Of a stretch of DNA of 64,000 nt, positions 12,711 to 31,348 are shown one piece after another. The DNA lies in the NCBI GenBank assembly GCA_032622095.1, contig CP136061.1:256567582-256631581 (forward strand). Direction: 5' to 3'. Source of the stretch: Siphonodentalium dalli (lineage: Eukaryota; Mollusca; Scaphopoda; Gadilida; Siphonodentaliidae). The notes below the pieces were generated by a model. The model saw only the letters and a program-made list of their open reading frames with translations. It had not been told where the DNA came from and did not search any database. Numbering within the stretch: position 1 is the stretch's first letter; the number at the start of each line of letters is the position of its first letter. Both the position numbers and the translations under genes were made by a program.

Positions 12711-13775
12711 TTATAGGCGATTGTCGAAGTGGATTATCTTATGCGTCGCCATGTTGCTTGATTGAGTGAATGATTTCTCGCATATATCGCATTGATACGG
12801 TCGATCTCCAGTGTGAATCCTCTTGTGTGAAGTCAAATTTCCTGACTGGGTGAATGATTTATCACATATATCACATTTATACGGTCGGTCGTCGAAGTGG
12901 ATTGTTTTATGCTTCGTCATGCTGCTTGATGTAGTGAATGCTTTCTCGCATATATTGCACTGATACGGTCGATCGCCAGTGTGAATCCTTTTGTGTACAT
13001 TCAAGTTTGTCGAGTGCAGAAAGGATTTGTCACAAACATCACATTTATACGGTCGATCACCAGTGTGAATGAACCTATGCGTCGCCAGGGCGCCTGCTGC
13101 AGTGAATGCTTTCGGGCATATATCGCATTGATACGGTCGATCACCAGTGTGAATTCTCTTATGCCTCATCAGGGAGCGCGCCGTAGTGTATGCTTTCGGG
13201 CATATATCGCATTGATACGGACGATCACCACTGTGAATTCTCTTATGCCTCGTCAGGGCGCTCGCTGTTGTGAATGCTTTTTCGCATATATCACACTGAT
13301 ACGGTCGATCTCCGGTGTGAATTATCTTGTGTGTTGTCAGTGGTCCTAACAACTTGAATGATTTGTCACAAATATCACATTTATATGGACGGTCGTCGAA
13401 GTGGATTGTTTTATGCTTCGTCAGATCGCTTGATTGAGTGAATGATTTCTCGCAAATATCGCACTGATCCGGTCGACCGCCAGTGTGAATCCTCTTGTGT
13501 GCAGTTAAATTTCCTGACAGGGTGAATGATTTTCTACAAATATCACAATTATACAGGCGATTACCTGGGCGGATTCTCTTATGATTCGTCAAGTCGCTTG
13601 ATTGACTAAAAGCCTTTTCGCATACATGTATATCGCACTGATACGGTAGGTCTCCAGAGTGAATCATTTGGTGCTTACTCAAATCGCCCGACACAGTGAA
13701 TGTTTTATCGCCAGTGTGAATTCTCTTGTGTGCAGTCAACTTTACTGAGGTGAATACTTTTTTGACAAATATCAC
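12711..13775 (-). CDS. C2H2 zinc-finger protein, array 2, segment 1 (10 fingers)
   Basis: 354 open codons on minus with ten complete C2H2 fingers and TGDRP or FDDRP linkers. Helix residues vary (QSSDLTK, TASALTR, TARSLMR, AAGALAT, HSTNLNV, TSSSMTK), the pattern of a sequence-specific DNA-binding protein. The N-terminal part is damaged: a finger has CDIHVCEK in place of CDICEK (two extra residues between the Cys pair), and an earlier finger is reduced to TFTVSGDLSKH. The first codon is not ATG, so the start is uncertain. It ends HFDNRL-stop, where a 2-base loss shifts the frame into segment 2. A fragment of this gene (about 12,937-13,101) has been copied to 32,083-32,245. The conserved upstream block follows at 13,785. 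Confidence 0.65.
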   Translation of the reverse strand: MIFVKKVFTSVKLTAHKRIHTGDKTFTVSGDLSKHQMIHSGDLPYQCDIHVCEKAFSQSSDLTNHKRIRPGNRLYNCDICRKSFTLSGNLTAHKRIHTGGRPDQCDICEKSFTQSSDLTKHKTIHFDDRPYKCDICDKSFKLLGPLTTHKIIHTGDRPYQCDICEKAFTTASALTRHKRIHSGDRPYQCDICPKAYTTARSLMRHKRIHTGDRPYQCDICPKAFTAAGALATHRFIHTGDRPYKCDVCDKSFLHSTNLNVHKRIHTGDRPYQCNICEKAFTTSSSMTKHKTIHFDDRPYKCDICDKSFTQSGNLTSHKRIHTGDRPYQCDICEKSFTQSSNMATHKIIHFDNRL

Positions 13776-13784
13776 ATTGACTCT

Positions 13785-13925
13785 GCTTCACAGGAAAGTA
13801 TTTTAAAACTAAAAAAAATATTAGGTCACAGATAAGTGACCACAAAGAGTTCTGGTCTGCCCGATACGGGAATGTTATTGAACGTTTATCAACATCACAC
13901 ATTCTATGTATGGGTTACAGTGGCG
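13785..13925 (-). promoter_or_regulatory. Conserved block upstream of ZNF array 2
   Basis: Carries GCTTCACAGGAAAGTATTTT, GGTCACAGATAAGTGAC, TCTGCCCGATACGGGAA and ATTGAACGTTTATCAAC in the same order and spacing as the blocks upstream of arrays 1, 4 and 5. The TATA-like word is weakened here (TTTATCAA for TTTATAAA). Confidence 0.55.
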
Positions 13926-14287
13926 TCCATAGATATTTTCTGTATACTTCAATGTTACGACTGTTGATCTGCACTAAAAGGGCGAATTGGAAATGCTCAA
14001 ACTGCTTTCAGATTATATGAGCTTTCAGAAACAATATGGCGATATCCACGACACTTATTGTTGTAGTCTTAACCATAATATTAAATGAAATAAAATTAAA
14101 ACACGCATTTTTGACATAGGTTGTTCTTAATGTTATCAGAGGATTACCTTTGCGCGATATCCAAAAAACTAATCATCGCCTTTCCGTTTTCTTTGTATGG
14201 AATCAAATACGATTGTCGTATTGGTAACATTGGCGCGATATCCCCCCCCCCCCCAAAAAAAATCATCACGTTTCCGTTGTCGATGAA
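13926..14287. other. No gene seen
   Basis: Intergenic DNA up to the left end of the large transposon. It contains a C-tract at about 14,241-14,254 and a partial duplication of an AATCATCRC-TTTCCGTT phrase (14,171 and 14,262). Confidence 0.5.
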
Positions 14288-14295
14288 CCCTTATA

Positions 14296-14565
14296 AAAAA
14301 GTACCACAGTAAACCGAGGTAAACCAAGGTAAACCGTGGTGCACCAAGGTACGTAGACACAGTACCGCGGTAAACCGAGGTGTACCTGGGTGCATCATCT
14401 GAAATACCCAGGTAAACCACGGTAAACCGAGGTGCATAGTATAATACTGTGATGTACCACGGTACATCTGGTGATGTACTGCGGTGCAATATGTGGTGTA
14501 CCACGGTTTCCTATTTCAACACCTCGGTACACCACGGTGCATCTAGTGGTGTACCCGGTAATATA
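14296..14565. repeat. Left subterminal GGTAAACC motif array (outer)
   Basis: About twenty copies of a roughly 12-bp motif in both orientations, such as GTAAACCGAGGT, GTGGTGCACC and TACACCACGGTGC. Many are near-palindromes. The sequence matches in kind the array at the right end (30,586-31,075). Confidence 0.8.
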
Positions 14566-14783
14566 TTTTCCCATGCATTTAGGTTGAGAAATGTGCAACC
14601 ATGTTAGTGGACGAAAGAAGTGGATATGTATAATGGGCCACAATTCAGGATGAAAAATAGACACTGAATGATAATAGACATGTATTATCAGGGTCTTTTT
14701 ATTCCTCAAGGGGGTTAGCTGTATCTCACTTCACAAACTAGTAGATTGATTACAGCCACCATGCAAGGCCGGTAGAGATTGGT

Positions 14784-15249
14784 TTAAAGGTACTCAATGC
14801 GATTATATGGTCTCCATATCATCAGATTCCAACAACAACAATTTATTTGAAATGCCGCTTCAGTTATCAGAATCAATTAATTGCCCAAAAATAATGCTAA
14901 CCACATTCAACTATAGTATCAAATTTGGCCAAATCCTGTTAGTTATCAACAATTTGTTCAATGAAATTTTGCCGGTTTGTCAAATATCTGACACAAAAAA
15001 GCCACTTTATCCATCTTCATGCGCAATTTGGTCCGAGACACTCTTCGCGTCGACTTTTACTGCACCACTAAATATTCCAGGTGGTGAAAAATAATACTGG
15101 TACATTCGAAAAAATTGATATCTGATCATTCTGAGCTTTGATGGGTGGGTTCCTCGACTCGAACCAAAATATTGTTCACCCCCCCCCCCCCCCCCCGATG
15201 CCAAATAAATAGTAATTTAGGGCCGCTTAATCAGATTGAGTACTTTTAA
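14784..15249 (+). mobile_element. TTAA MITE family B, copy 1
   Basis: 466 bp between TTAA duplications, with inverted ends AAGGTACTCAATSCGATTA. The second copy lies inverted at 29,571-30,007. An internal C-tract (about 15,179-15,196) is present only here. A TTAA target fits piggyBac or Kolobok type elements. No ORF. Confidence 0.8.
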
Positions 15250-15487
15250 GTTCAGGGAATTACATGTACATGTAGTTGAAACCACCAGATGTGATAAGAT
15301 GTGATATGATATTTCAAACAATGCCAACAATATTAAATACCGTTATTGCCATAATTGTACAAATGTACAGTATATCAACAGAGTTAGCCCAGTTATGTTG
15401 ACAACAGATGTAAAATGTTAAAAACAGCTTAAACTATGCAGATATCAGTGCAATTTCATACTCTAGTACACAATGTATCGCAGTTCA

Positions 15488-15715
15488 ATCACCGTGGTAA
15501 ACCACGGTTTACTGTAGTAAACTGCTGTCTGTTTACTGTGGTTCACCGTGGTAAACCATGGTAAACCACAGTTCATTTACTGTGATTTAAACCAAGGTTT
15601 ACCACGGTAAATCTACCGTGGTTAACCACAGTTTGCCGTGGGGTACCACAGTAATTAGACTGTGATTAACCAGTCAATTGCATGTGGTTTACCAAAGTGA
15701 ATGAACTGTGATACA
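15488..15715. repeat. Left subterminal GTGGTAAACC motif array (inner)
   Basis: Dense palindromic words such as GTGGTAAACCACGGTTTAC and GTGGTTAACCAC in both orientations. Separated from the outer block by MITE B and about 240 bp on either side. It could fold into hairpins or act as clustered binding sites. Confidence 0.8.
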
Positions 15716-16543
15716 TCGCGTCACATGAACAGGTCTACTTAATATACTGGCACATAGTATTTAGAGATGGTGATCTTTTGCGATGATAGTGCTTTGATAC
15801 TACTACATATACATCATGTCATCATACCGGTATAAATATATTCTTTGCAAATGGATAATGATTTTTTTGTCGTCATCACAACCCACCACCGAGGCAATTT
15901 GTGGCTTTGACAGGAGCATGGTACGATCAATACAATAAAGATTGCTAGGTTTTCAATTGAAAATGAACTAATAATTTTATTAAATTCTAAAGAATTAATA
16001 TAAATATAAATAGTAAATAAAATGTGAGCCTGATTAACCCTATAGCCACGTCTCTGTACATGTATCTGTGATTGAATTAAGAGAATTTATATTTTTAGCC
16101 CATTCTTTAATGGAACAACATTGATGGGTAGTTATATGTGCCTTCGAAAATGTTCAGACAATAAGATCAACAACATTATATGTTCTGTTTTTAACATTAT
16201 CTGGACATTTACATTTGATAACTGCATAAAAATATCATGTCTGCTTTATTGTGAAACTGCCTCTCAAAATTATTCAACAATGATAATATTCCAGTCCCAT
16301 TTCAGAAACATGTTCATTAAAGACATTTATCATGTTTATCTTTAAAGATGTGTTCAGGGTTCTTAGTCAAATTTAAAAGTTTTATTTTAATACTTATGTG
16401 TTTTCCGATGTCCAAATGACGCTACTCGTATTTTGTTCAATACTTGATACGGCAATTGTATCCATCTATTTCATATAATTTTCAATGATGAATTCATGTC
16501 CATTTAATTTTAGGATATTGCAATTTTCCTTGTATGTTGATGC
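15716..16543. other. No gene seen
   Basis: AT-rich DNA between the inner motif array and the hairpin downstream of the transposase gene. No recognisable coding or repeat family. Confidence 0.5.
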
Positions 16544-16666
16544 ACAGGAGCTTGGAATTTGGTCAAAACCCATCTTTTATTGGCGGAACCATCACCCGGG
16601 ACCAGGTCCCGGGTGTGATGGTTCCGCCAATAAAAGAGGGGTTTTGACCAAATTCCAAGCTCCTGT
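16544..16666. repeat. Long hairpin, about 60-bp arms
   Basis: A near-perfect inverted repeat centred on CCCGGGACCAGGTCCCGGG. The arms carry CAGGAGCTTGGAATTTGG, and both strands therefore encode the same meaningless peptide. It lies 74 bp beyond the transposase stop codon. It may be a tiny foldback MITE or a 3'-end structure of the transposase transcript. Confidence 0.85.
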
Positions 16667-16739
16667 GGTTGATGTCTGAACCCTGAATACATGTATATCT
16701 AAAGGCTGCTAATGATCAATGAGACAATATAAATTTCTT

Positions 16740-19700
16740 TCAATCAATCTCAAAAGGAATGAGTCCAATGGCAAAAGATTTCTTGGAATTATTAATAATC
16801 ATACACTTATTTACAATATCACTCGGTTTGAATGATATACACACATACCGGTGATCAATATCAATTTGTGTGAATGGCTCCATCAGATTATAATCTGCAT
16901 ATGAGTCAAGAAGCTTATATGATGCCCTTGTTGTTTGCTTCATAATATTACCACAAATAATTAGTTCACGTTCACATTCACAGTCAGAAATTTCATGAGA
17001 ACATAAGAAACTTCCCACGACAACACAATTAATTTGAATTATTTTGCCATTTCTTAGTCTGACAACAGAGTTATCTCTCCTGAATTTAGAAGCATATGAT
17101 GCTGTTGAAAACATCGATCCATTGGTACAAAATCTGTTGTACAATGAACATTCACTGTTCAGAACAGGCAAACCTTTCAATCTCATTATTGATAGTTTCT
17201 GCTGCACAGTCAGTTTTCCAAGCAAGTGACTTCCCAGAACAGTGCAGCCACTTATTGTTGCTGCCTTTTTCAGTGGTTTGTTAGAACAGTTCAGTCTATC
17301 GAATGCTTCTATCACATCAGTTGAAGCATGAGTTAATTGTGATTTTGCAAACCAATTCAATCTCTGTTGTGCCAAAAACCACTTGAATGCCTGAATATCA
17401 ACTCCTTGTGTCCCGTGAATTAGCGATAATAGCTTTCCATTCCCATCTTCAAATAAGAAAGCAGAAGATGACGGTAATGGTCCAGAGTGTTCCACACATT
17501 GAGTCAAATGTGTCATTAAATGAACATTATAGGAGATATTTTCAATACCATACAATAATTTGAACTTGACAACAAACTTGTCCAAGCACCTTTTCGCTAC
17601 CATTATGTCATTCTCGGTTATTCCGGTTTTTATAAGAAGGCATACACCATTCACAAGTAGTAACCAGTGCCTGTAGTAGTCAGCTGGTAGAATATTAGCC
17701 AAAATTATTGGCGAATAAAACAACAAGAATGATCGCCATTCCGCGGCTTTCCAGTATTTCCGTTCTCTCATTGTTCTAGGTAACCTGCGAACTTCATTCG
17801 GTGGTTTAATATCCAACATCAACTTGTCAATAATCTCTGTTTTTCTGCCAAGATAGAAGGCTTTCTCATGATGACTGCTATCTATCCAGAGTTCTGACAC
17901 TTGACGAACTACGCCCAGGAGAACAGAGTGCATGTAGTCTGGAGGAAAACCGTTGATCACATCAAAATGTGGTAACCTCATGAAAACATTCATCCCTTTG
18001 ATGCCTGATATTGTCATTTTCGTTTCACATGCTTCCTTCGCGTGTTCAACAGTTTCTTTGTGATTTCTCAGAGGAGGCATAGTTTTTTTAACAGGGTACA
18101 CCCTCGTTTCACCATGACCTTTTTTCACTCTCTCGCCCTCGTGAAGACAGTAGGAACATCCATATGCACCATTGAATTGTTTCATATTCTGGAATACTGG
18201 CCGTGCAATTGTGTCACACACGCACAATAACGGTAAACATTTTGTTCTTCTCTCCATATTCTGGGAATCCTCCCAAACAATTCCTGGATTTTCAGGATTG
18301 TTGATATGTTGAATTTCGTTTATAAAGGGCTTCATGTACTGAATTGGATTCGGCTTTGAAGATCCAAACCACAGTGAATAAAGAATCATGTACTCAGATT
18401 TTTTATCTTCTTGCACTTCATTTATAGTGCAAAACACGGGCCAGAATGATTTGTTTGACGAATTGAATACAGGTGCACCATCCGCACTTATCGTAAGTGT
18501 TATGTTATCAGTGTGTCTTACAAATTTTTGGATCGATTCCTGTCTGTATAGTTTTCCATCTCGAATACTGCTGATAGATACATTATCGTCAGAAACAGAA
18601 TCCGATTTCACTAGGAAATTACTGAGGTTATGTTTCTCGAAGAAGTTCTTGATTTGATATTCCAATGGAAGTGAAATGAAATAATTCTTTTTGGCATGTG
18701 CTTTCTGTCTGTCAAAGTTGACGTCACAGAAAGAACATTTATTCATACCCGAATCTACGAGGGATTCACAACTTTCACAAAAATAGTTGAAGACCAGTTC
18801 ATCTGAATTGTTGAAAAAGTGTTTGTCAAAGAGATACTTTGATGCTGGTAAACTATTTGGCAGAATAGTGTTGAAGAGATCTATTAAATCTCTGATAGCT
18901 ACTCCACTCAATTTATGTCGCACTGTATATGCCATAATGAGAGTCAGAAGCTGTCCTCTGCTGAGGTCCGATTCATTTGTTGCTGGAGCATTTAATTCTG
19001 ATTCCATTGGCACATTGACATCGTCATTGATTACTATGTCATTTTCCTGAAATATAGACAGGTACAAATTTATTGATTAATAACCCTCTTATAATGACTT
19101 ACATACTGAATGGATTTTCCTACTTAGTAAAAAAAAAAAAAAGTATACATTGGAATTGTCTATTATATACTGTATATGGAGGGGTGTTCAGGAAAAATAA
19201 GCAGACGACAGTTAATATAAGTAAGAATGAGTCCTATTTATTAAGGGAAATGTTCTTCACTTGCCATGTGGTTGGACAATTGACAGGCCGAAACATATCA
19301 ATGGTAATTGTCGCTAAGAAGAGCCTAAGAAGATGCGCATGTATTTTATGTTAAAGTACCGGTAGCCACGGTAGGTGTAATTACTGGTGTAGTACTAGTA
19401 ATTTAAAAACTCACAACTGCATTTTTTGTTTGAATAATGAATAGTGATACCGGTACAGGTATGTCTCTGTCAAAAAGTAGTGACTAGTACGGTATTTATA
19501 ATTTAATACATGCATACCCTTTTAAATAAGCATTTCGTGCCCACTTACTAGTAACCACGGTGTGGTTAGCATTGCCACCACGGCCGAAATGCAACTACAC
19601 CACGGCGGCTCCACCGGCTAACTACAGCTGGGCCACGGCGTATTTGCCATTCGGCCATGGTGTAGTTGCCACTGTGTACATTCATTAAACTGAAAAAAGA

Positions 19701-20611
19701 CAACACAAACCAGAAATCTAACCACGGTGTACATGCCATTCGGCCCCGTTGTAGTTGCTTTTCGGCCATGGTGTACAATGTAGATGTGTACTTGACGTTC
19801 GGCCACTCGGTCGCGGTGCTCAACTGCAGTTACAAACTCTGACACCTCGGTCGAACGGCAAATACACCACGCACGGTGCCAATGGACACTTGTTTTGTCC
19901 AGCAGGGTATTACTATACCGTACCTTACTCATATTTAAATTTATGCAGTATTCATTTTCGAGCACCCGTAGGTGCGTAAATTTAAAACTGAGCAAAAAGT
20001 AGTACTACGAATAATTCAGAACTGCAAATGAATATACCGGTAGTTGAAAAAATGATTTTCAAATTTTACGATGCTATTTTTAAAATTGCGCACCAGGATG
20101 CACAAAACTAAGCAAAAAATAATATTGCACAAATTTAAATACATGTATGAGTAAGGTATTTCAATGAAAAACATGTACAAAATCTATATGGTATATAGCT
20201 TACCAGATGCATATCATATGAAGATTCAGCATTGAGACCACATTCAGTTTCATTATCATCATCAACATCACTTGGCGAAGGATCGACTGAGTCTAAACTG
20301 CTCATAGTAGAATCGGTAGTGGCTTCGATTAGTAATGGGATTTCTGTCTCTGGTTCTGAACACAATTCCATGCTTTGTGAACTATCAACTGTCTCTGTAC
20401 TAGGTGCAGACATATGAGACGTTGATGAAACTGTAGATGAAGGTCCTACATCGGACTGATCAGTTGAACTTGAACAGTTTATCTCCCATCGGTGTAAAGA
20501 TCGCTTTGGAATAAATTCTGTTTCTTCTCGGAGATATTTTTTATAGGAACCACGACTCACAGGAGGCTGTATGTCCACAGTAAACTTCCTTTTTCTTTCT
20601 GACTCGTCCAT
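16740..20611 (-). CDS. Transposase_21 (tnp2/CACTA-type) DDE transposase, two exons
   Basis: Exon 1 is 20,204-20,611 (ATG at 20,609-20,611; donor CTG/GTAAGC). Exon 2 is 16,740-19,046 (acceptor TATATTTCAG/GAAAAT). Both junctions are phase 0, giving 904 aa. Exon 1 is basic, then Ser/Asp/Glu-rich, without known domain. Exon 2 has a Cys4 zinc ribbon (C226, C229, C240, C243), then the RNase-H-like catalytic core: ADGAPVF (D325), CDTIARP (D414), the CxxC insertion GCSYC (C433, C436), DYMH (D506) and SAFLFEDGNG (E669). These match the CMC/EnSpm family, which cuts and pastes DNA; the D-D-E assignment is by analogy. No stop or frameshift is seen, so the gene may be functional. It diverges from the BEN gene across 683 bp. 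The family is firm; EnSpm subfamily is not resolved. Confidence 0.88.
19555..19880. repeat. Degenerate CGGCCATGGTGTA motif cluster in transposase intron
   Basis: Within the 1,157-bp intron (19,047-20,203) a motif like TTCGGCCATGGTGTAGTTGCC or its inverse recurs roughly eight times at irregular spacing. Core words are GGCCATGG and CACGGTG. It is locally GC-rich compared with the AT-rich surroundings. Function unknown; possibly a decayed minisatellite or additional binding sites. Confidence 0.5.
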
Positions 20612-21294
20612 GACGGTTTACGCTCGTATAAACTTGAAACAAATCACTTTAGCGTTGGTCCATACACTGATGTAAACAAAACACAAATGCAGCTCGTCGA
20701 CTTTCTCAATTTCGTTGTATGTAAATAATGACAAATCTCATCAATATATGCAATATATTCTTTGCGATAACAGGTTATCCCCAAGAAAATATCCACGTTC
20801 AATGGTTACTCGACAAAGGTATCATTATTGGAGTGGTCGTAACGTTGGCTTACAATAGTTTTATACTTTTAACTTCTCGGAAAACATTGATTAATCAGAA
20901 CAAAATTTGTTACGGGAGACTACTCTATTTGCAAACCAATACAAAAAGTCGCCCAACTTGGTGGAACGAAATATATGTAATTTCAATGAAATTACAAGAA
21001 ATTTCAATGAAATTACAAGATGACTTAAATAAATCACGTTTGATGTGAAGAAAAATTGCTATAATTGTGAAGTTGGTGCAAATCAAATGTTTAATAACAA
21101 ATATGAATAGAAGAGACCGTGTCATATTAATATCAGGACACCTGCATTCGATTCGTTTTAGACTCTGCGATGCGATTCCTGCAAGTTCCGCGGTCTCCTA
21201 GAATTGGCGCTCTTTTTGATTATTATTGCCTTTGTTGGACACTGTTAACACAATCGAATATTTCCAAGTTATTTTACAATTTATACACACAAAC
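20612..21294. promoter_or_regulatory. Divergent intergenic region of the transposon
   Basis: 683 bp separate the ATG codons of the transposase (minus) and BEN (plus) genes, so both promoters must lie here unless untranslated exons exist. Contains the repeated ATTTCAATGAAATTACAAG (about 20,978-21,019) and CpG-bearing DNA near 21,160-21,210. No clear TATA box is identified. Confidence 0.55.
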
Positions 21295-24200
21295 ATGCGT
21301 TTCGCCTTAGTTGAATTCATTGCATATGATTCATATGAAATTATTGAATCAAAAGCCATTCTTGATGCCGACGATGCGGATCTGAATAATGATGATTTTG
21401 ATTTCACAGAGGAGTACCAGATTTGTACTAGTACCAGTAACACTGGCGCAAAGAAAAAAATATCTCAAGCGGATATACATGAAGTGAAAGTTTACAGATT
21501 CAGTGGTGAGTTGAACATATTATTTGATCATGCATGATATCTCAGAGTCAACTTTATAAAATACTAATTGTTAAATTGGAATAATAATTAATATATAAAT
21601 TTATATTAATTATTATTAATATTATTATTATAATATTAATATTATATATAAATTCTAATTATAAATATAATTGATAAATTAATTTAAATATTTTAATTCC
21701 AAAAAAACTGGCATTTATAAATTATAATTAATATGATATAGATGTTATTGTTAATTCAATGTTATATTGCATATTTCAATTTAAATTTGGTTGCAAATTA
21801 ATTTTTGCAGTTCACAAAAATAATGTGCATGCAGCTATAGTGTATACAGGAACTTGACACTGCATGCTAGCTGGTCCATGGAATTAACTGCTCATGATCG
21901 AGCTAGCGATCACCCTCCCCCCCATTTTGGTACGCAGGATTCAGGGTGTTTTGAAGCAATATATAGGCGGGATTCGTATACCCCGGGCCTAGAATTAACT
22001 GCATGGTATTCAGGTTCATGCAAGCAAAACATCTTGGGCGCGCAGGTTTTGATGGCGCGAAATAATATTTTTGTGCTAGTTATATATCGTTATATGAATG
22101 AGTGGGTAGAATTAATAGCTTCTTGGGCATATATATATCGCGACCATGGACATGGCATCATAATAAAGTATCATAACGGCCTCATAATGCCCATAACACG
22201 ACCGGCAATAATTTGTGTGTCATTTATCGCATATTATTTTCTAAATTGTATTCAGGATTCACCCCCCAAAATTAACTGTTATTCAGGATTCACCCCCCCC
22301 CCCCCCCCCAAAAAAATAACTGGTATTCACACCCAGAACCGGACCCATTTATTTTTTTATTTGATCCATTGTTAGGATATCTATACCGGTAGCAGCTATA
22401 TAGCTAGGCGACATACCGGTAGTTACTAAATTAATATAGAAATAAAATTTACACATTTTCCGGCCAGATTGATATCTATTTCTCTTGCATACTGGTACAT
22501 GTGTATATCCTATGCTACAGTAAACAATTGGAAACTCTAATTGAAACTCGTTTACTTTTCAGATGACCGACAGGAACTTGTAGAAATTACAAATATTTTG
22601 AAGTCGCCTGAATGCGAACTGTCAGTTGAGGCTGCTGTGAAGGAGTTTATGACTCAGGGCAAAGAGAATGCGGGTAGAGGAAAAAGGAAGAAGTATCCCG
22701 CTCAAAAATTAAGGGAAGAATCCACAGATGATGAGGTTAGTAAAACTTATACTACATGTATAATAAAATATAATAGTTGAGAGTCTAAACCAGTAGTGGA
22801 ATAACTGGTCAGCAGTGGAGTTGTAAGATGTAATTGTCCCGGTGTATTTTTCAACCCCCTGTAAACACTATTTAGATAAAAGACATGTGCTAGTATATTA
22901 TATTTTGAATTTATGGAATTGTTTGGTTGCATGAAACTGATAGTGATAAGTTACTATAGTATATAGACACTATGTCAATCAGCGAAATTATCAAATAAAG
23001 CAATCATCCCTGGCACTACATAAAATATATCAACTGAACATACTACTCAGTACTGGTACTTAACTATTAACTTCTGAAATCAGACACAACTACTAATATT
23101 GTCTACTTTTTACATCCATTGTCAAAATTTAAATCAACGAACACATTCATAATTGAAGACCATTTTTAAACTATTCAGGAAGAACCACTTATGAACAAGG
23201 CAAAGAATGTGAGTACCGGTATGAAGAAACTAAGAAAAGAGGCAGACAGGAATGAGGAGAAGGAAATTCTAGACGAGTTGATGAGCAGTGCTAAATGTGC
23301 CAGCAGCGGGCAGATAGAAAAACCTGATAATGAAATACCAAAGAAAGTAAAGTCAAATGTGAGTCTTCCAAAATCTTATGAAGTGATGCATAAACTTGCC
23401 ATGCATTTGTGTACACTTCTCATAAATAATCTTAAGTACTCTGTCAAATCCTGTGTTGCGCATTAAAAAGAAAACATCTTAACTGTTCCAGCCCTCATAA
23501 TTGGCTACAACAATCGGCAATGCCGAAGCCATTTGCTGAAGCAAACTGGGCCACGGTAAAGGGTTGCCATAGCAGATTGCCGAAGCCAAACAATCTGAAT
23601 TAAAAGGGCTGCTGTTCACATTCTCTATACACTGAAATGTGCGATTCCATTCAATTGAAAATCTAGTTGAGAACTAATAATCGCTGGAAAACACTGTTTA
23701 ATATGGAATCCTATTACGGCCACTTGCTAATGGCGCTTTCGGCGCACTTTTTGTCGCTTTCGGCGCATCGCGCCGAAAGCGCCGAAAGCGACAAAATGTG
23801 CGCCGATCGGCGCACTTTTTGTCGCTTTCGGCGCTTTCGGCGCGCGCGCCGAAAGCGACAAAAAGTGCGCCATTAGCGTTGTTTCGGCGCGCGCCGAAAG
23901 CGCCGAAAGCGCCGAAAGCGCCGAAAGCGACAAAATGTGCGCCGATCGGCGCACTTTTTGTCGCTTTCGGCGCTTTCGGCGCGCGCGCCGAAAGCGACAA
24001 AAAGTGCGCCATTAGCGTTGTTTCGGCGCGCGCCGAAAGCGCCGAAAGCGCCGAAAGCGCCGAAAGCGCCGAAAGCGACAAAATGTGCGCCGATCGGCGC
24101 ACTTTTTGTCGCTTTCGGCGCTTTCGGCGCGCGCGCCGAAAGCGACAAAAAGTGCGCCATTAGCGTTGTTTCGGCGCGCGCCGAAAGCGCCGAAAGCGCC

Positions 24201-27200
24201 GAAAGCGACAAAATGTGCGCCGATCGGCGCACTTTTTGTCGCTTTCGGCGCACCGCGCCGAAAGCGACAGAAAGTGCGCCATTAGCGCGGTGCGCCATTA
24301 GGGCATTCGGCGCGGTGCGCCATTAGCGCATGTATACAATTAAGTATGTGATCAGCCCAGCAGGGGTGCCGGAAGAGGGGGCAGCTGATCCCCTGCCCTT
24401 GACCAAGGGGGCAGGACTTGCCCTTTTTCTGGAGACAGAAAATGCTGTGTTTAATCTCGTGTTTTTTATAGCAAAATGTAACTTTTTGGGTCCAAATACC
24501 ACCAATTTCACAAGGAATATTAATTTTTTGTCAAAAACGGCCATAAAAACCGACAAATACCTTTAAAATAGGGATTTTTGCCACAATGAATTTATGGTTG
24601 TTTTTTCCGAGTTTGCGGAGAAAATTCCCTTTTTTGGGCAGAAAAGTGCCATTTTTGTAGGCTCTCCCCCCCCCCCCGATGCCCTTGGATGCCCCCGGCA
24701 CCTCAGTGCAGATCGGACATGGCCATATGTGTACAATGTATAGGCCTATGTATCAATTTTAAAAGGGAGGGGCTGAATTTTGCTGTAGATACACCTCTAA
24801 ATGCTATAATTTGTCATTATTCAGATTTAAAATTATTTATTAATATGGTACTTAACACATGTATGAATTTTCACTATAAATGAGTCTAAATATAGTCAAG
24901 TGATTAGTATGCATACATTTGAGCAACTTTTTAAGTGAGTGTTGCCGCATGTAATTAAATGTAATATAATGAAAAAGTCTGTTAATAATTGAACACCACA
25001 ACTGACTGTCACTAGCTGTGATAGACTTGCAGTGAATATATTGATTGAGTAATTGGCAATCATGAATATTTTTGTGGGACAAACCCCAGCTTCTGGCATG
25101 ATTCAGGGTACGTTCATACGCTGGCAAGTTTGCAAGATACATTTTTGTGGGCATTTCGTCATAGAAAACCACATGGTGCCAGAATATGAACGGAAATATG
25201 CACCTAACATGCATCTTTACCAGAGCGAAAGACATCGGAAGTAACATTTATATAGTTCCACTTGTACTACCAGTGCTACCTCCAAATACCTGTATGATTT
25301 ATTCTTGTGAGATAATTTGCATGATATTTACAGGCAAATTCCGGTAGCATCGTTACCAGTGGAACTACAGAGATTTATTTCGCACGTATACTAGTAGTTA
25401 GCCCCCCAACTTTGGTCAAAAGTATAACAGTTGGAAATTTCATACTTGCCAAAACATTAGTTGGAAATTTCACACCAACAATAGGTGAAATATGTTCTTG
25501 TAGTTTGATTATAAAACAATTTATTGGGGGGGGAAATGTTCCTATGTTTGGTAAAAACTTTGGACAGAAATGGTCATCAGTTGGAAATTTTCCAACCTTA
25601 GGGGGGGTAACAGATTGGAAATTTCCAACACTTGGAAAGCTTGTGTCCTGGTCCCTCCCCCGTGGCCAGTCAAAAACTTCTAGTTAATTTAAGAAAACAA
25701 TATTGTCATACATTTGGTCAACATTGTCATTGGAATTGTCATCAGTTGAAAATTTTCCAACCTAAGTGGGGGGTGTAGGGTTTAAATTTACAACGGTAGG
25801 AAGGCTTGAGGCTAGTGTAGATGTTACGATTTCAAAATTTTCTTGTTAAGATTTCTAAATTTTCGCACACCGGATCGAACCATGGTCGGCCCGGTGTGTC
25901 ATTGCCCCACATCCACATGGCCAATACAAAACTGCTAATTAGTTTAGCAAAACAATATTTTACTACATTTGGTCAAATTTGTGGACAGAAATGGTCATCA
26001 CTTGAAGAATTTTCCAACCTGAGGGGAGTATGAGGTTTGAAATTTTCAAATAACTAATAAATGTTCAGGTTAAAATATCTGTCAATGTTCTCATACCAGG
26101 AATATAGAAATATAAAACCATGGCTTATGAATATATTATAAATTAGGCCTGACTGAGGTTCAAGGGGGGGGGGGGTGCAAATGGAATTATTCAAAAACTT
26201 GTGTTGGTCTGATTCTGACTAAAGGGGGGATGCAGTTGGAATTTCCCAAGGTGGACACCCCCCCCCCCAAACATGTAGTTGAAATTGAAGTCAGAAGAAC
26301 CCCTCCCCCCCAGATTGTGCCATGAAACTTTACTCTGCATAGTGCTTGTAGAGATATTATTCCATCAGTGCAAAACATGGGAACTTTTTTTATGTTCTAA
26401 CATGGAACTTTATAACATTGAACAAACAAGGCAGAGAACATGTTGGACTCTCCGTTACCACATCCCTGCATCCATGCGAATGGGGGGGGGGGTTCAGGAG
26501 CTGTGGCTTTTGAAGTTCACTCACCTAATTGTAATTCCATATTTCTGATAAAACTTATAGATAATTTCACGGTGTGTAAAATTTAGAAAAAAATTGTCAA
26601 CAATAAACGCCTCCATTTTAATGGCATACAGAAGTTACACCTCGTTACGCATGCCGGAAACGCTGCACTTTTTGTCGCTTTCGGCGCTTTCGGCGCGTTA
26701 CTAACGGCGCATATTTTGTCGCTTTCGGCGCGGTGCGCCGAAAGCGCCGAAAGCGCCGAAAGCGACAAAAAGTGCGCCGTAACGGCGCATATTTTGTCGC
26801 TTTCGGCGCTTTCGGCGCGCGCCGAAATAACGCTAATGGCGCACATTTTGTCGCTTTCGGCGCACAAGCGCCGAAAGCGCCGAAAGCGACAAATAGTGCG
26901 CCGTTACGGCGCACTTTTTGTCGCTTTCGGCGCTTTCGGCGCGTTACTAATGGCGCACTTTTTGTCGCTTTCGGCGCTTTCGGCGCATCGCGCCGAAAGC
27001 GCCGAAAGCGCCATTAGCAAGTGGCCGTAATAGGATTCCATAGTTTAAGATAGATTATCTCTTCTACAACATGTTTTATATAGTTAAGTGGGTATGAAAT
27101 AATGAATTGAATCGAATACCCCTGTCTGGAAACACTTCTATCAATTTTATAAATGGAGTTTATTTCGGTTATTTCCTTGTAAAATAAATCTGTACCATTC

Positions 27201-30200
27201 AATAATGGTCCCTGATATTCATGACTCTTTTATCTGAACTAATTTGAGATACTATCTAAAATTAGTTTATATATTAAAAGTGATAATCTATCTTTAAAAT
27301 TTCTACATCAAGGCTGAAACTCAATTAGGAGTGGAGGAGAGATTTAATGTATATGTACATCTACATGTATCGCTGATTCCATTTACAAACAAATTACCTT
27401 ACCAAGTTATTATTTCAGAGTATTTCGACCAGTACCACTACTATAAATTCGGATTTGGCCAAGATCAGTCAAGAGAATTTAACTCTCACCCAAAGGATGA
27501 ACTCCCTGGAACAAGAGAACGAGTTTCTTGTTAGAAGAATTAAGGAGTTGGAAGGGCAAGTGCTAGCCAACAAATGTAAGTACTTGTATGATAATAAAAA
27601 TAATGTTCAGTGGCAGGGGTCGATTTAAAACACACATACAAAAAAAAAATACTCATGATAAGTTCTATTCTACGGCATCAAAGATTTATTATTTGTACAA
27701 ATCTTGTTTGGTTTTATCAAAATTTCCAGATAAAATGAAGTCATAATTACTTTTTGTAGTAACGTCAGTCACACATGTCCATTTGTGTTAGATTGTGGGG
27801 ATTGTTCTGATTGGGCGCATTAAATCTTGGTACATATTGCTTTGAATCCTGGGGCTCGCTGGGGGTTGGGAAATATAATCTACCATAGTATGTTAGGCCC
27901 TGGCCCCGATATTACATTATGTGGATATGAGTAGGTTTGACAAGGACAATAAAGGATATTTAATAGAATAATAATTTACATAACTAGTATGTAACGCATC
28001 TAATGGGTAATGTGGAATTTCTATAAAACATTGAATTTGAACGAATAGGAGCCTCGAGCGGGGAAAACTAAATATTGTTAGATTGTATTCAGATTATCAA
28101 AGGGTGTGAAAATTTACTTATTTACGTTTTATTATAGCATTGCCAGATATTGTCAAACAGTTGACATCAATTCAACAGAAGTTATCTGTGGCCAACAGCA
28201 CACCTCCACCCAACAGCACACTTGCACCAGCGCAGGAATCATGCAATCTGACAAGCATTTCCAGCAGTACCGGTAGTCAACCATTCCCAAAAATATCCTT
28301 TGTAAGTTTCTAGACTATATTCTGCTACATTATGAAATATTTCATGTTAAATGCTGAGAAGAGTCACAGGCAGAGACACAGATGAAAAGTTTGGGGGGGG
28401 GGGTATGGGCTCTTGTCTGTTTTCCGTCTGTCAGTTACAACTTTGAAGCTTTATTATATTGGTCACTGTTAGTCATATTTCAATGATATATGGTATGTTG
28501 AGGAACCAACATGGGGGAAAAAAGTATTCACAAACAGCAGGTTTCAGCAATTTTTTTCCAAATTTACGGCCCTTATTAAGTAAATGGGACTAAAGTTTGA
28601 AAATGAATTTTTCTCTTCGCATGTTTCATGAATCGCCTTCTGATCACATCGCTCATCACCAAACTTCATGTGGATCTTTAAGGTGGTTTATGGCCTTTAG
28701 ATGGCAGCTGTCAATGTTTTTCAAATTGTTTTTGGTCTGTCTGGCTAGATATTAACTCAATCAGATATGAACCAATTTCAATAATTTGATATTCATGCAT
28801 GTGTTTATTCAGTCAATTACCCTGGATTCTCGTGAAAAAGTATGTATGGATTCTCGCAAAATCAGATGAAACATATTCCCTGGCCAGATTAAAACATCTT
28901 TCAAATTAAGGCACCTGAGAAAATTAGTAAATCTTTGAAGAAAACCACCTTTGTATGGGATACTCTTGGTATTGCATTTGCTTGTTATTTGTTTTTTCTA
29001 AACTACAGATAATTCCTGATTATCCATGCTCTAATAAATGTGAATTATTATATAGTGATTGCACTCTGGTGATCTTGCGACACAAAAAAAAAATAGAACC
29101 CTAATTTTGACTACTTTTTCCACAGCTTAAGCGTGATGCAGTGGATAAAGCGAGGAAAACGAATGCTCAAAAGTTGACCAATGAGCTGATGATTTCGGCC
29201 TATACGAGTGATCACATGGCATGCCACAGCGTGACGGGAAATAGCAACAAGGGCGTGAGTGATGGTGCTAAACCGGGGTTGGAGCCAGGTGAAGTGAAGG
29301 AGATCGAAGGTAAGTTAAATCAATTGTCTCAAAGATACTGATTAACGCTATTTTACATCACAACTTCAATATAATATTTTGTCTGTAATGATTGAATATA
29401 TTTATGCCTTGATGACTAATTTGGACAAAAAGGAAATGTGTCTTATATGCAGATTCTATAAGCTGTAACATAAAGTAAATGTACTTCATCACAGGTATCA
29501 GATACATATTTGTGTACCATTTGATTGTATCTTCTTATTGAGAGAATTCATATCACACCAAACTGCAGTATTAAAGGTACTCAATCCGATTAAGCGGCCC
29601 TCGATTACTATTTATTGTCATCAAGGGTGAAAAGTATTTGGTTTGAGTTGAGGAACCCACAAATTAATGATCAGTTATAGATTTTTAAAATGTATAATTT
29701 TATCACCACCTGGAATATTTGGCGGTGCAGTAAAAGTCGACGCGAAGAGTGTCTCGGACCAAATTGCTCATGAAGATGGATAAAGTGGCTTTTTTGTGTC
29801 AGATAATTGACAAACCAGAAAATTTTGTTGACCAAATTGTTGATAAATAACAGGATTTGGACAATTTGATACTATAGTTGAATGTGGTTAGCATTATTTT
29901 TGGGCAATTACTCAATTTTTCTGATAACTGAAGCGGCATTTCGAAAAAATTGTTGTTGCTGGAATCTGATGATATGGGGACCATCTATTTGGTTTGAGTA
30001 CCTTTAATTTCCACTGTGCTATTACTTACTGGCTTTGTTACATAATGTAGTGTAGATCTCGACGATAACATGCTAGTATTTATGCAATATTTATGTTTGG
30101 TATGAGAACAAACTTATTTGTGAACATGCAAACGCTGACCGGGTAGACAAATTATCTGTGATCATTTTTCCTTAGTTCAGATATTGGGGTATAAGAACAA

Positions 30201-30389
30201 ACTTAAGGTAGTCGATAGCTTAAAGCTACAAACTCACAAACATATATGTTTATGTTATCTTTTTCAGATGTTGTGAGATACTACTTCCCACATAAGAAGC
30301 CATCTGACATCAGGTTTTACATGTGTCAGAAGATGAGGAATTCTTACAAGACACAACAGAGAAAAGTTTCAAAGAACACAACTATTTAA
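21295..30389 (+). CDS. BEN-domain protein with coiled coil, seven exons
   Basis: Exons: 21,295-21,505; 22,563-22,735; 23,179-23,358; 27,419-27,575; 28,138-28,301; 29,126-29,309; 30,268-30,389 (TAA). All introns are GT-AG, phases agree at all six junctions, and the 1,191 nt give 396 aa without a stop. The N-terminus (RFALVEFIAYDSYEII) precedes an acidic stretch; exon 2 has a basic GKRKKYPAQK segment; exon 4 forms a heptad coiled coil (about residues 200-240); exons 6-7 (about 296-390) match a BEN domain, with AQKLTNELM, PGLEPGEVKEIEDVVRYYFP and CQKMRNSYK. BEN domains bind DNA and recruit repressors. I infer a DNA-binding accessory of the transposon, comparable in role to TnpA. It could instead be a host gene next to the transposase. 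The first exon and start are the least certain. Confidence 0.75.
23730..24329. repeat. Left arm: tandem palindromes (GGCGCTTTCGGCGC)
   Basis: Units of about 139-148 bp repeat roughly three and a half times, built from AAAGCGCCGAAAGCG, GACAAAATGTGCGCCGATCG and GCGCCATTAGCGTTGTTTC. Each unit contains several nested palindromes, among them GCGCCGATCGGCGC and CGGCGCGCGCCG. It is far richer in GC and CpG than its surroundings. The many long open frames here are artefacts of the repeat. Confidence 0.85.
24330..26649. other. Core of the foldback element, no gene
   Basis: Contains a possible smaller repeat bounded by GGGGTGCCGGAAG and CCCCCGGCACCTC (about 24,363-24,706), a region with repeated GTTGGAAATTTCC words (25,425-26,045) and several poly-G/C tracts (26,164, 26,260, 26,481). 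No protein family is recognised. Confidence 0.5.
26650..27015. repeat. Right arm: palindrome array of the foldback element
   Basis: The same GCGCCGAAAGCGACAAAAAG modules as in the left arm, in inverted order, ending GCGCCATTAGCAAGTGGCCG. It is shorter than the left arm (about 0.37 against 0.6 kb) and uses a variant junction module (GCGCCGTTACGGCGC for GCGCCGATCGGCGC). Confidence 0.85.
27045..27297 (-). mobile_element. Short TTAA MITE variant, complete (253 bp)
   Basis: TTAA at 27,045-27,048 and 27,294-27,297 with inverted ends AAGATAGATTATCTC and GATAATCTATCTT. Related to the partial copy at 9,580-9,738 and to MITE family A. The foldback element inserted at its left TTAA. Confidence 0.75.
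29571..30007 (-). mobile_element. TTAA MITE family B, copy 2 (inverted)
   Basis: 437 bp bounded by TTAA, inverted relative to 14,784-15,249, in the last intron of the BEN gene. Ends AAGGTACTCAATCCGATTA. Shares the internal GTCGACGCGAAGAGTGTCTC word with copy 1. Confidence 0.8.
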
Positions 30390-30585
30390 TTGCCATATTG
30401 ATTATTGAAAGTGACTCATATAAAATTATATTACAAATTGCTACAAATTCTCATTTATAAGCCCATGTTTATTCTACATGTGATATATCCATCAAAATTT
30501 CCAATACTCCAAACTCCATAATTAATTACTGTGCAGTTCCTCTAATTAACCAGCCATGATAACTCAGGGAGAAATCAGTATTATC

Positions 30586-31075
30586 ATACCCCGTACCGCG
30601 GTGCTGCATCTAGGTTTTTGGTCGAGGTAAACCATGGTATATGTGGCACGATGTACCATTCACTGTGGTAAATCAGTCTATTTACTGTGGTAAACTGTGG
30701 TTAACCATGGTTCTTTTACTGTCGTAAACCATGGTTTAATGTGGTAAACCGTGGTTTACTGTAGTTAACCATGGTACATTTACTGTGGTTAACCATGGTA
30801 AACTGTGGTTAACCACGGTGTATTTACTGTGGTAAACCACAGTTTACTGTGGTTAACCACGGTGTATTTACTGTGGTAAACCACAGTTTACTGTGGTTAA
30901 CCACAGTAAATGAACCGTGGTTTACCGTGGTAAATAGACCGTGGTTAACCACAGTAAACCGTGGTTTACCATGGTGAATGAACCGCGGTACATTGTGTCA
31001 AATGTACCGCGGTTTACCTCGACCAAAAAACCCCGGTACAGCACCGCGGTATTTTTTAGCAAGGTTTACCGCGGT
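30586..31075. repeat. Right subterminal GTGGTAAACC palindrome array
   Basis: About 35 copies of ACTGTGGTAAACCACAG, GTGGTTAACCAC and related words in both orientations. A roughly 50-bp unit with GTGTATTTACTGTGG is duplicated near 30,810-30,880. Flanked outward by TTTACCGCGG and the TIR. It begins about 200 bp after the BEN stop codon, so it may overlap that gene's 3' UTR. Confidence 0.8.
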
Positions 31076-31348
31076 AAATTTTTATAAGGGAAGTCACGAT
31101 CTATCCAGAATGTGAACATGACACTGATATAATCTGCTGGTGTTTGTGTACAAAGTTCTAGAATCGGTTGTGTGTCTGGACTCAGTGTTGATGTTGAAAT
31201 TTACAGTGCTATGACTATCAAAACACAGATACATTTACTGACACAAGATGATACAGGTGTTGTATTTATGGGTTTTCATAGTAAGGCCTGGTAGAATAAA
31301 ATATGTACCAAATACGTATACGTCTCGGCCAACGGCTCCAACATAGCT

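Follow-up and report, generated by a model that had tools for sequence, protein, structure and literature searches.

What does the second gene of an animal CACTA transposon do? The question is raised by a locus of the scaphopod Siphonodentalium dalli, where a 64-kb stretch of one contig (the window, C1:256567582-256631581; coordinates refer to it unless a contig is named) contains a DNA transposon of 16,803 bp at positions 14288-31090. Beside a tnp2-type transposase this element carries a divergently oriented gene for a protein with a BEN domain. In plant En/Spm, TnpA binds the subterminal repeats. For animal CACTA elements the nature of the second protein has been in question since SmTRC1, for whose accessory proteins no match was obtained according to the excerpted text of its report (PMC1636069). 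A preliminary description, drawn from the letters of the window, had proposed that the BEN protein takes the TnpA role. We found that transposase and BEN gene are indeed a standing pair in one transposon, present in copies with the same boundaries and recurring in other families. The reading that we favour, with a probability of about 0.66, is a TRC-type cut-and-paste transposon with two subunits encoded from a shared divergent 5' region and a BEN protein in the TnpA role.

The element is mobile and has fixed ends

The element is bounded by perfect 12-bp terminal inverted repeats, CCCTTATAAAAA, and over a longer span 24 of 28 bases match between the ends. Its junctions read ..tgAA/CCC...GGG/AAgt, i.e. 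a 2-bp duplication. With at most one mismatch CCCTTATAAAAA occurs in the window only twice, at the two ends; as two or more matches were also reached by 15 of 100 shuffled sequences, this rarity proves little and the ends rest on copies elsewhere in the genome. We examined one host genome (2,226,750,531 bases, 9 contigs), in which the right end was recovered at no fewer than 19 places, window included, with 480 or more of 501 bases matched (best 40 of 240 candidates scored), and the left end gives four near-complete matches and many more partial ones. A copy on C7 measures 14,840 bp, is 98-99.6% identical in its main blocks and has TG flanks. A matching 2-bp duplication was found in 11 of 13 copies: AA, TG and CT in a first set, AC, CA, TG, TG, TA, TC and TT in a second, and one AC, read by eye, that adjoins a variant right end. 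The two TG cases of the second set share flanks, leaving ten independent cases. The copies without a matching duplication are one on C9, with a variant end, and C6:181.7M, which lost its right end. The genome search with both ends thus returned further copies with identical boundaries, the inverted ends first noted from the window hold, and coincidence as their explanation is ruled out by these copies. The element is a mobile unit that has fixed ends and makes 2-bp duplications. In 192 kb of genome sequence sampled blindly there was no copy with these ends.

At 16 places the last BEN exon stands alone beside the right end. Several of these are units of about 3.2 kb that have both ends and are internally deleted, non-autonomous derivatives.

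TRC elements are described in the excerpt of PMC1636069 as having CCC ends, 2-bp direct repeats and a Transposase_21-type transposase with further proteins beside it. The present element and its copies end in CCC..GGG at both tips; CACTA or CAC..GTG ends are absent, and the duplication is of 2 bp versus the 3 bp of En/Spm in the narrow sense. By its CCC ends and 2-bp duplication the element fits the TRC branch of the animal CACTA superfamily and not En/Spm proper. Of the label CACTA-like used earlier, membership of the superfamily therefore stands and the narrow sense does not.

The transposase has a predicted RAG1-like core

The transposase comprises 904 residues encoded in two exons, with no internal stop. 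Searched at full length it gave no Pfam family at E<=10, and exon 2 alone matched Transposase_21 at E=1.2e-5 with 25.1 bits, under the cut-off of 28.6. Among its relatives, 36 of the 42 members of the exon 2 alignment match Transposase_21 at E<=1; of nine relatives scanned separately eight match the family, six of them above the cut-off. The protein collection contains 62 relatives at E<=0.001 (29-46% identical), and the exon 1 motif RGSYKKYLREETEFIP is 69% identical over 16 residues in relative P0057. The preliminary description of an intact minus-strand Transposase_21 gene is thus right as to the open frame, and as to the family it leans on these relatives.

The motif of the CACTA superfamily (CMC/CMCT), a DDE triad whose second D and E enclose C(2)C and H(3-4)H (excerpt of PMC12730594), is present and conserved (D189, D278, C297-x2-C300, H509-x3-H513, E533). 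Structural models give the core a RAG1/Transib-like catalytic fold and the C-terminus a BAH-like one: positions 16743-17250 (residues ~600-763) model as a BAH domain (BAHCC1, DNMT1), likewise in relative P0001. The element differs from RAG1, Transib and ProtoRAG in that identity over the fold is about 10%, a BEN protein replaces RAG2, the C-terminus models as BAH-like and the duplication is 2 bp. A search of viral contigs with the alignment of the transposase gave 21 pattern matches, none of them a relative.

A BEN gene stands opposite the transposase

The partner gene is open, has seven GT-AG exons on the plus strand and encodes 396 residues; the two start codons lie 683 bp apart. Its BEN-like domain, first read from the letters, scored 35.3 bits in the Pfam profile scan (PF10523, E=1.3e-8, cut-off 23.2, residues 311-378), and the closest solved structure is human BEND6 (7yul, E=9.5e-11 to 8.7e-10), with an alignment that spans exons. 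BEND6 and BEN-solo proteins thus share the domain with the present protein, which differs in being transposon-encoded. The coiled coil noted earlier was judged from the sequence to lie at exon 4, where a heptad pattern is visible; a crude heptad score peaks next door, at residues 238-269. The BEN frame is also open in the C7 copy, with five synonymous and five non-synonymous codon changes in 393 (dN 0.005, dS 0.021, from small numbers).

Pairing was scored by a scripted overlay of genome hits, a pair being a BEN match that lies within 25 kb of the transposase, on its 5' side and on the other strand. Of 24 transposase loci with an identity of 42% or more, ten have a divergent BEN, where random placement gives 0.00044; these ten include all six loci whose open stretch covers 650 or more aligned residues. 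In the copies on C7 and at C3:200.8M all seven BEN exons are kept while the transposase frame is interrupted. The pair extends to other families. Family E has three 776-codon open transposase frames 46% identical to ours and two loci at 49%, and its BEN gene has homologues of exons 1 and 2, of the coiled-coil exon and of both BEN-domain exons (~29-46% identity per exon); the left end of the family E element was not found in the stretch examined. Family D (C6:15.7M, transposase 50%) has BEN exons 1, 2 and 6, and family B (L031, 6,588 bp, CT duplication) has exons 1, 2 and 7 beside a transposase remnant of 43 residues. At C3:88.3M (L036) an open, 31% identical transposase has on its 5' side a divergent BEN domain that is of another subtype but is interrupted by an intron at the equivalent position; it scored 20.4 bits as an exon alone and 29.3 bits, above the cut-off, when spliced. 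Among loci of 29-38% identity, four of 24 have a divergent BEN of this subtype within 25 kb (three of the seven open ones and one partial) versus 0.0004 at random. The pair in families of 46-50% identity together with this second subtype in four of 24 distant loci indicates that in this genome the pairing is widespread and old, though it may not be universal. Recent capture of the BEN gene is ruled out by the copies, by the homologous exons across families and by the recurring pair.

BEN matches number 84 in the genome, so that the gene is multi-copy; a single-copy BEN gene conserved in synteny, which the preliminary description had named as evidence against the pair, is not what we see. A whole-genome scan with PF10523 gave six unsplit domains above the cut-off (Table 1), two of them equal-scoring and none near a listed transposase, and only six because an intron interrupts most of the BEN domains in this genome.

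The genome search with the L036 BEN also gave some thirty dispersed, similar matches over its residues 7-73, many of which contain one TGA; they belong to another multi-copy BEN-like family. Eleven transposase fragments that are nearly identical to one another (32%, 382 residues, each with one TAG) were also observed, clustered on a single chromosome arm at C7:18.86-23.97 Mb, with no BEN found nearby.

Candidate binding sites are packed at both ends

The subterminal arrays reported earlier at both ends were borne out by site counts, GGTNNACC and ACCRYGGT lying far above shuffle means in all three blocks (Table 1). Of the 38 GGTNNACC sites in the window 31 fall in the subterminal blocks. GTGGTAAACCAC, with up to two mismatches, gave 40 matches against 4.6 expected, a number reached in none of 100 shuffles, and the right array contains 14 near-palindromic 16-mers compared with 0.45 in shuffles. 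The shared 5' region has two half-sites only. Family B ends, like those of family A, have GGTNNACC sites and the ACCRYGGT palindrome. In the arrays of family E, ACCRYGGT occurs at 10 sites (shuffle mean 0.1) and TACYRTGGTA at 16 (mean 0.3), and GGTNNACC was not found by site counts. The bodies of elements of families A, B and E have three, zero and zero ACCRYGGT sites.

Four base-contact residues of BEND6 are named in the excerpt of PMC10206803; by hand alignment family E keeps all four, and families A and B, like the window protein, keep two. The residues change along with the array, though a claim of co-evolution would need more than two lineages.

A second cluster of CCACGG/GGT half-sites was seen in the transposase intron (19047-20203), at 17 or 14.7 per kb versus ~2-4 per kb elsewhere.

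Nested repeats and neighbouring sequence

Three nested repeats lie outside the system. The two MITE-like repeats are of an abundant kind, matched in six of 20 sampled genome stretches, and both are also present in the C7 copy. The foldback repeats in BEN intron 3 are dense and built from a GCGCACTTTTTGTCGCTTTCGGCG-like unit in both orientations; this block is missing from the C7 copy and so came and went independently of the element. Just outside the left end, an open 358-residue frame of tandem C2H2 zinc fingers was observed on the minus strand (12711-13787).

Table 1. Positions of the element's parts, nested repeats and unsplit BEN domains
Feature	Position	Strand	Basis or remark
Target-site duplication AA, left copy	14286..14287	.	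sequence, plus copies elsewhere
Left terminal inverted repeat CCCTTATAAAAA	14288..14299	+	sequence match
Left subterminal array, outer block	14288..14570	.	10 GGTNNACC and 6 ACCRYGGT; shuffle means 0.3, 0.2
Nested MITE-like repeat, limits approximate	14784..15250	.	inverted partner 29575-30007
Left subterminal array, inner block	15471..15720	.	7 GGTNNACC and 6 ACCRYGGT; shuffle mean 0.1 each
Transposase exon 2 and stop codon: catalytic core, BAH-like C-terminus	16740..19046	-	gene model, homology, models
Transposase exon 1 (start codon at 20611)	20204..20611	-	gene model; motif RGSYKKYLREETEFIP in relative P0057
Shared divergent 5' region of the two genes, putative promoter	20612..21294	.	gene models
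BEN exon 1 (start codon)	21295..21505	+	gene model, relatives
BEN exon 2 (GRGKRKK basic motif)	22563..22735	+	gene model, relatives
BEN exon 3	23179..23358	+	gene model, relatives
Nested GC-rich foldback repeats, BEN intron 3	23702..27042	.	missing from C7 copy
BEN exon 4, putative coiled-coil stretch	27419..27575	+	gene model; heptad pattern by sequence reading
BEN exon 5	28138..28301	+	gene model, relatives
BEN exon 6; BEN domain starts ~29171	29126..29309	+	gene model, PF10523, structure match
Second nested MITE-like repeat, opposite orientation, limits approximate	29575..30007	.	partner 14784-15250
BEN exon 7; BEN domain ends ~30332; stop codon	30268..30390	+	gene model, PF10523, structure match
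Right subterminal array	30581..31090	.	18 ACCRYGGT and 14 GGTNNACC; shuffle means 0.2, 0.6
Right terminal inverted repeat CCCTTATAAAAA	31079..31090	-	sequence match
Target-site duplication AA, right copy	31091..31092	.	sequence, plus copies elsewhere
Unsplit BEN domains	C1:122880383, C7:136818081, C8:144647714, C3:144875959, C4:134722322, C2:86821571		PF10523 above cut-off

Role of the BEN protein

The recurrence of the pair in many copies and distant families suggests that BEN, a domain known mainly from chromatin control, helps to find transposon ends. Most likely, the BEN protein would do the job of TnpA: it would bind the arrays and bring in the catalytic subunit, a view that draws on En/Spm and on the BEN-like end-binding domain of Tn3 TnpA. 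The BEN protein would dimerise or oligomerise through its coiled coil, bind the ACCRYGGT-cored palindromes of the arrays, bring both ends together and recruit the RAG1-like DDE transposase. The latter would bind the 12-bp tips, cut, and insert with a 2-bp stagger, while its BAH-like C-terminus may recognise a histone mark in the chromatin of the target or the donor site. Short copies with both ends preserved could be mobilised in trans.

Several observations weigh against this view. Fourteen of the 24 nearer loci (at least 42% identity) lack a divergent BEN, one of them (C8:58.0M) having BEN exons near the transposase in a non-divergent arrangement. No BEN was found at 20 of the 24 loci of 29-38% identity, among them four open frames and the eleven near-identical 32% copies on C7; four of the seven open frames of ~30% identity are without one, and in the 8 kb 5' of one that were checked there was none. 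Many BEN matches have no transposase match beside them, the family E BEN scored 19.1 bits, under the Pfam cut-off, and yet matches BEND6 at 2.3e-11, and searches with the BEN protein gave no relative at E<=1e-3 among 4485 candidates or at E<=10 among eight. A home-built exon HMM recovered its own input sequences but failed to detect the L036 BEN, so that its silence at L037 means little. Transposase copies without BEN, which the preliminary description had also counted as evidence against the pair, thus do exist; yet all 14 of the nearer ones are partial, split or interrupted by stops, and each of the six long open frames has its BEN.

The main rival, though an unlikely one, is that BEN regulates the element or shields it in chromatin, as a repressor, insulator or anti-silencing factor; it would then bind the arrays and be dispensable for cut-and-paste. 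Conservation of the pair fits this equally well, the excerpted literature describes BEN proteins in repression and at boundaries, and in the excerpt of PMC1636069 TnpA also regulates its own promoter. The sites, however, are packed at both ends and not at the shared 5' region, as for an end-binding subunit, and it is this placement only that separates the two accounts in the present data. That the BEN gene is instead captured host cargo, useless to the element, seems to us improbable. Plant CACTA elements do carry captured gene fragments (excerpt of PMC8978399) and the domain resembles host BEND6, but orientation, place and homologous exons are constant across distant copies and families, a second BEN subtype sits in the same place, and the frame is open in the C7 copy. 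Chance neighbourhood of a transposase and a host BEN gene, or a BEN gene within another nested element, deserves next to no weight: other elements are nested here, but the whole unit, BEN gene and all, is found a second time as the 14,840-bp copy flanked by a separate TG duplication, and this copy together with the divergent pair recurring at other loci refutes it.

Relation to known systems and implications

Several known systems come close to this element. It resembles SmTRC1 of Schistosoma and related TRC elements in its CCC ends, its 2-bp repeats, a probable Transposase_21-type enzyme and additional encoded proteins; the second proteins of SmTRC1 resemble nothing in other TRC elements in the excerpt of PMC1636069, whereas here the second gene is a divergent BEN gene. 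With plant En/Spm, as excerpted, it shares subterminal arrays and a tnp2-type catalytic subunit (TnpD), and the requirement of En/Spm for two proteins would find its parallel here. En/Spm differs in its CACTA ends and 3-bp duplications, and in producing TnpA by alternative splicing of one transcription unit where the present element has a separate divergent gene; no BEN is described for TnpA in the excerpted sources. Domain DBD1 of Tn3-family TnpA has a BEN-like fold that binds transposon inverted repeats (excerpt of PMC9579193); it is bacterial, lies inside the transposase, and is likened here by description of the fold and not by sequence. Among the matches listed in a literature search on BEN and transposons there was no BEN-bearing eukaryotic transposon. 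What appears to be new is the BEN partner in a TRC-type CACTA element, the element class being already known.

We speculate further that BEN is a standing end-binding subunit of an old animal CACTA branch, and that animal BEN factors of the BEND5/6, Insensitive and NAC1 type were domesticated from such subunits. We regard this as a long shot; if true, it would be the second case, after RAG1, of one transposon machine donating parts to animal genomes.

In the accessory slot there now stands a recognisable family of DNA-binding proteins, for which structures have been solved and ways of reading DNA are known, so that the question of an animal TnpA becomes directly testable, with candidate binding sites in hand. 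If the proposed role is right, BEN, hitherto discussed as a chromatin and viral domain, would also be a transposition module, in parallel to the BEN-like fold of Tn3, and host BEN factors might have arisen from transposon BEN proteins. With a RAG1-like transposase, its BAH-like tail and a BEN partner, a single element would combine catalysis with the recognition of ends and the reading of chromatin.
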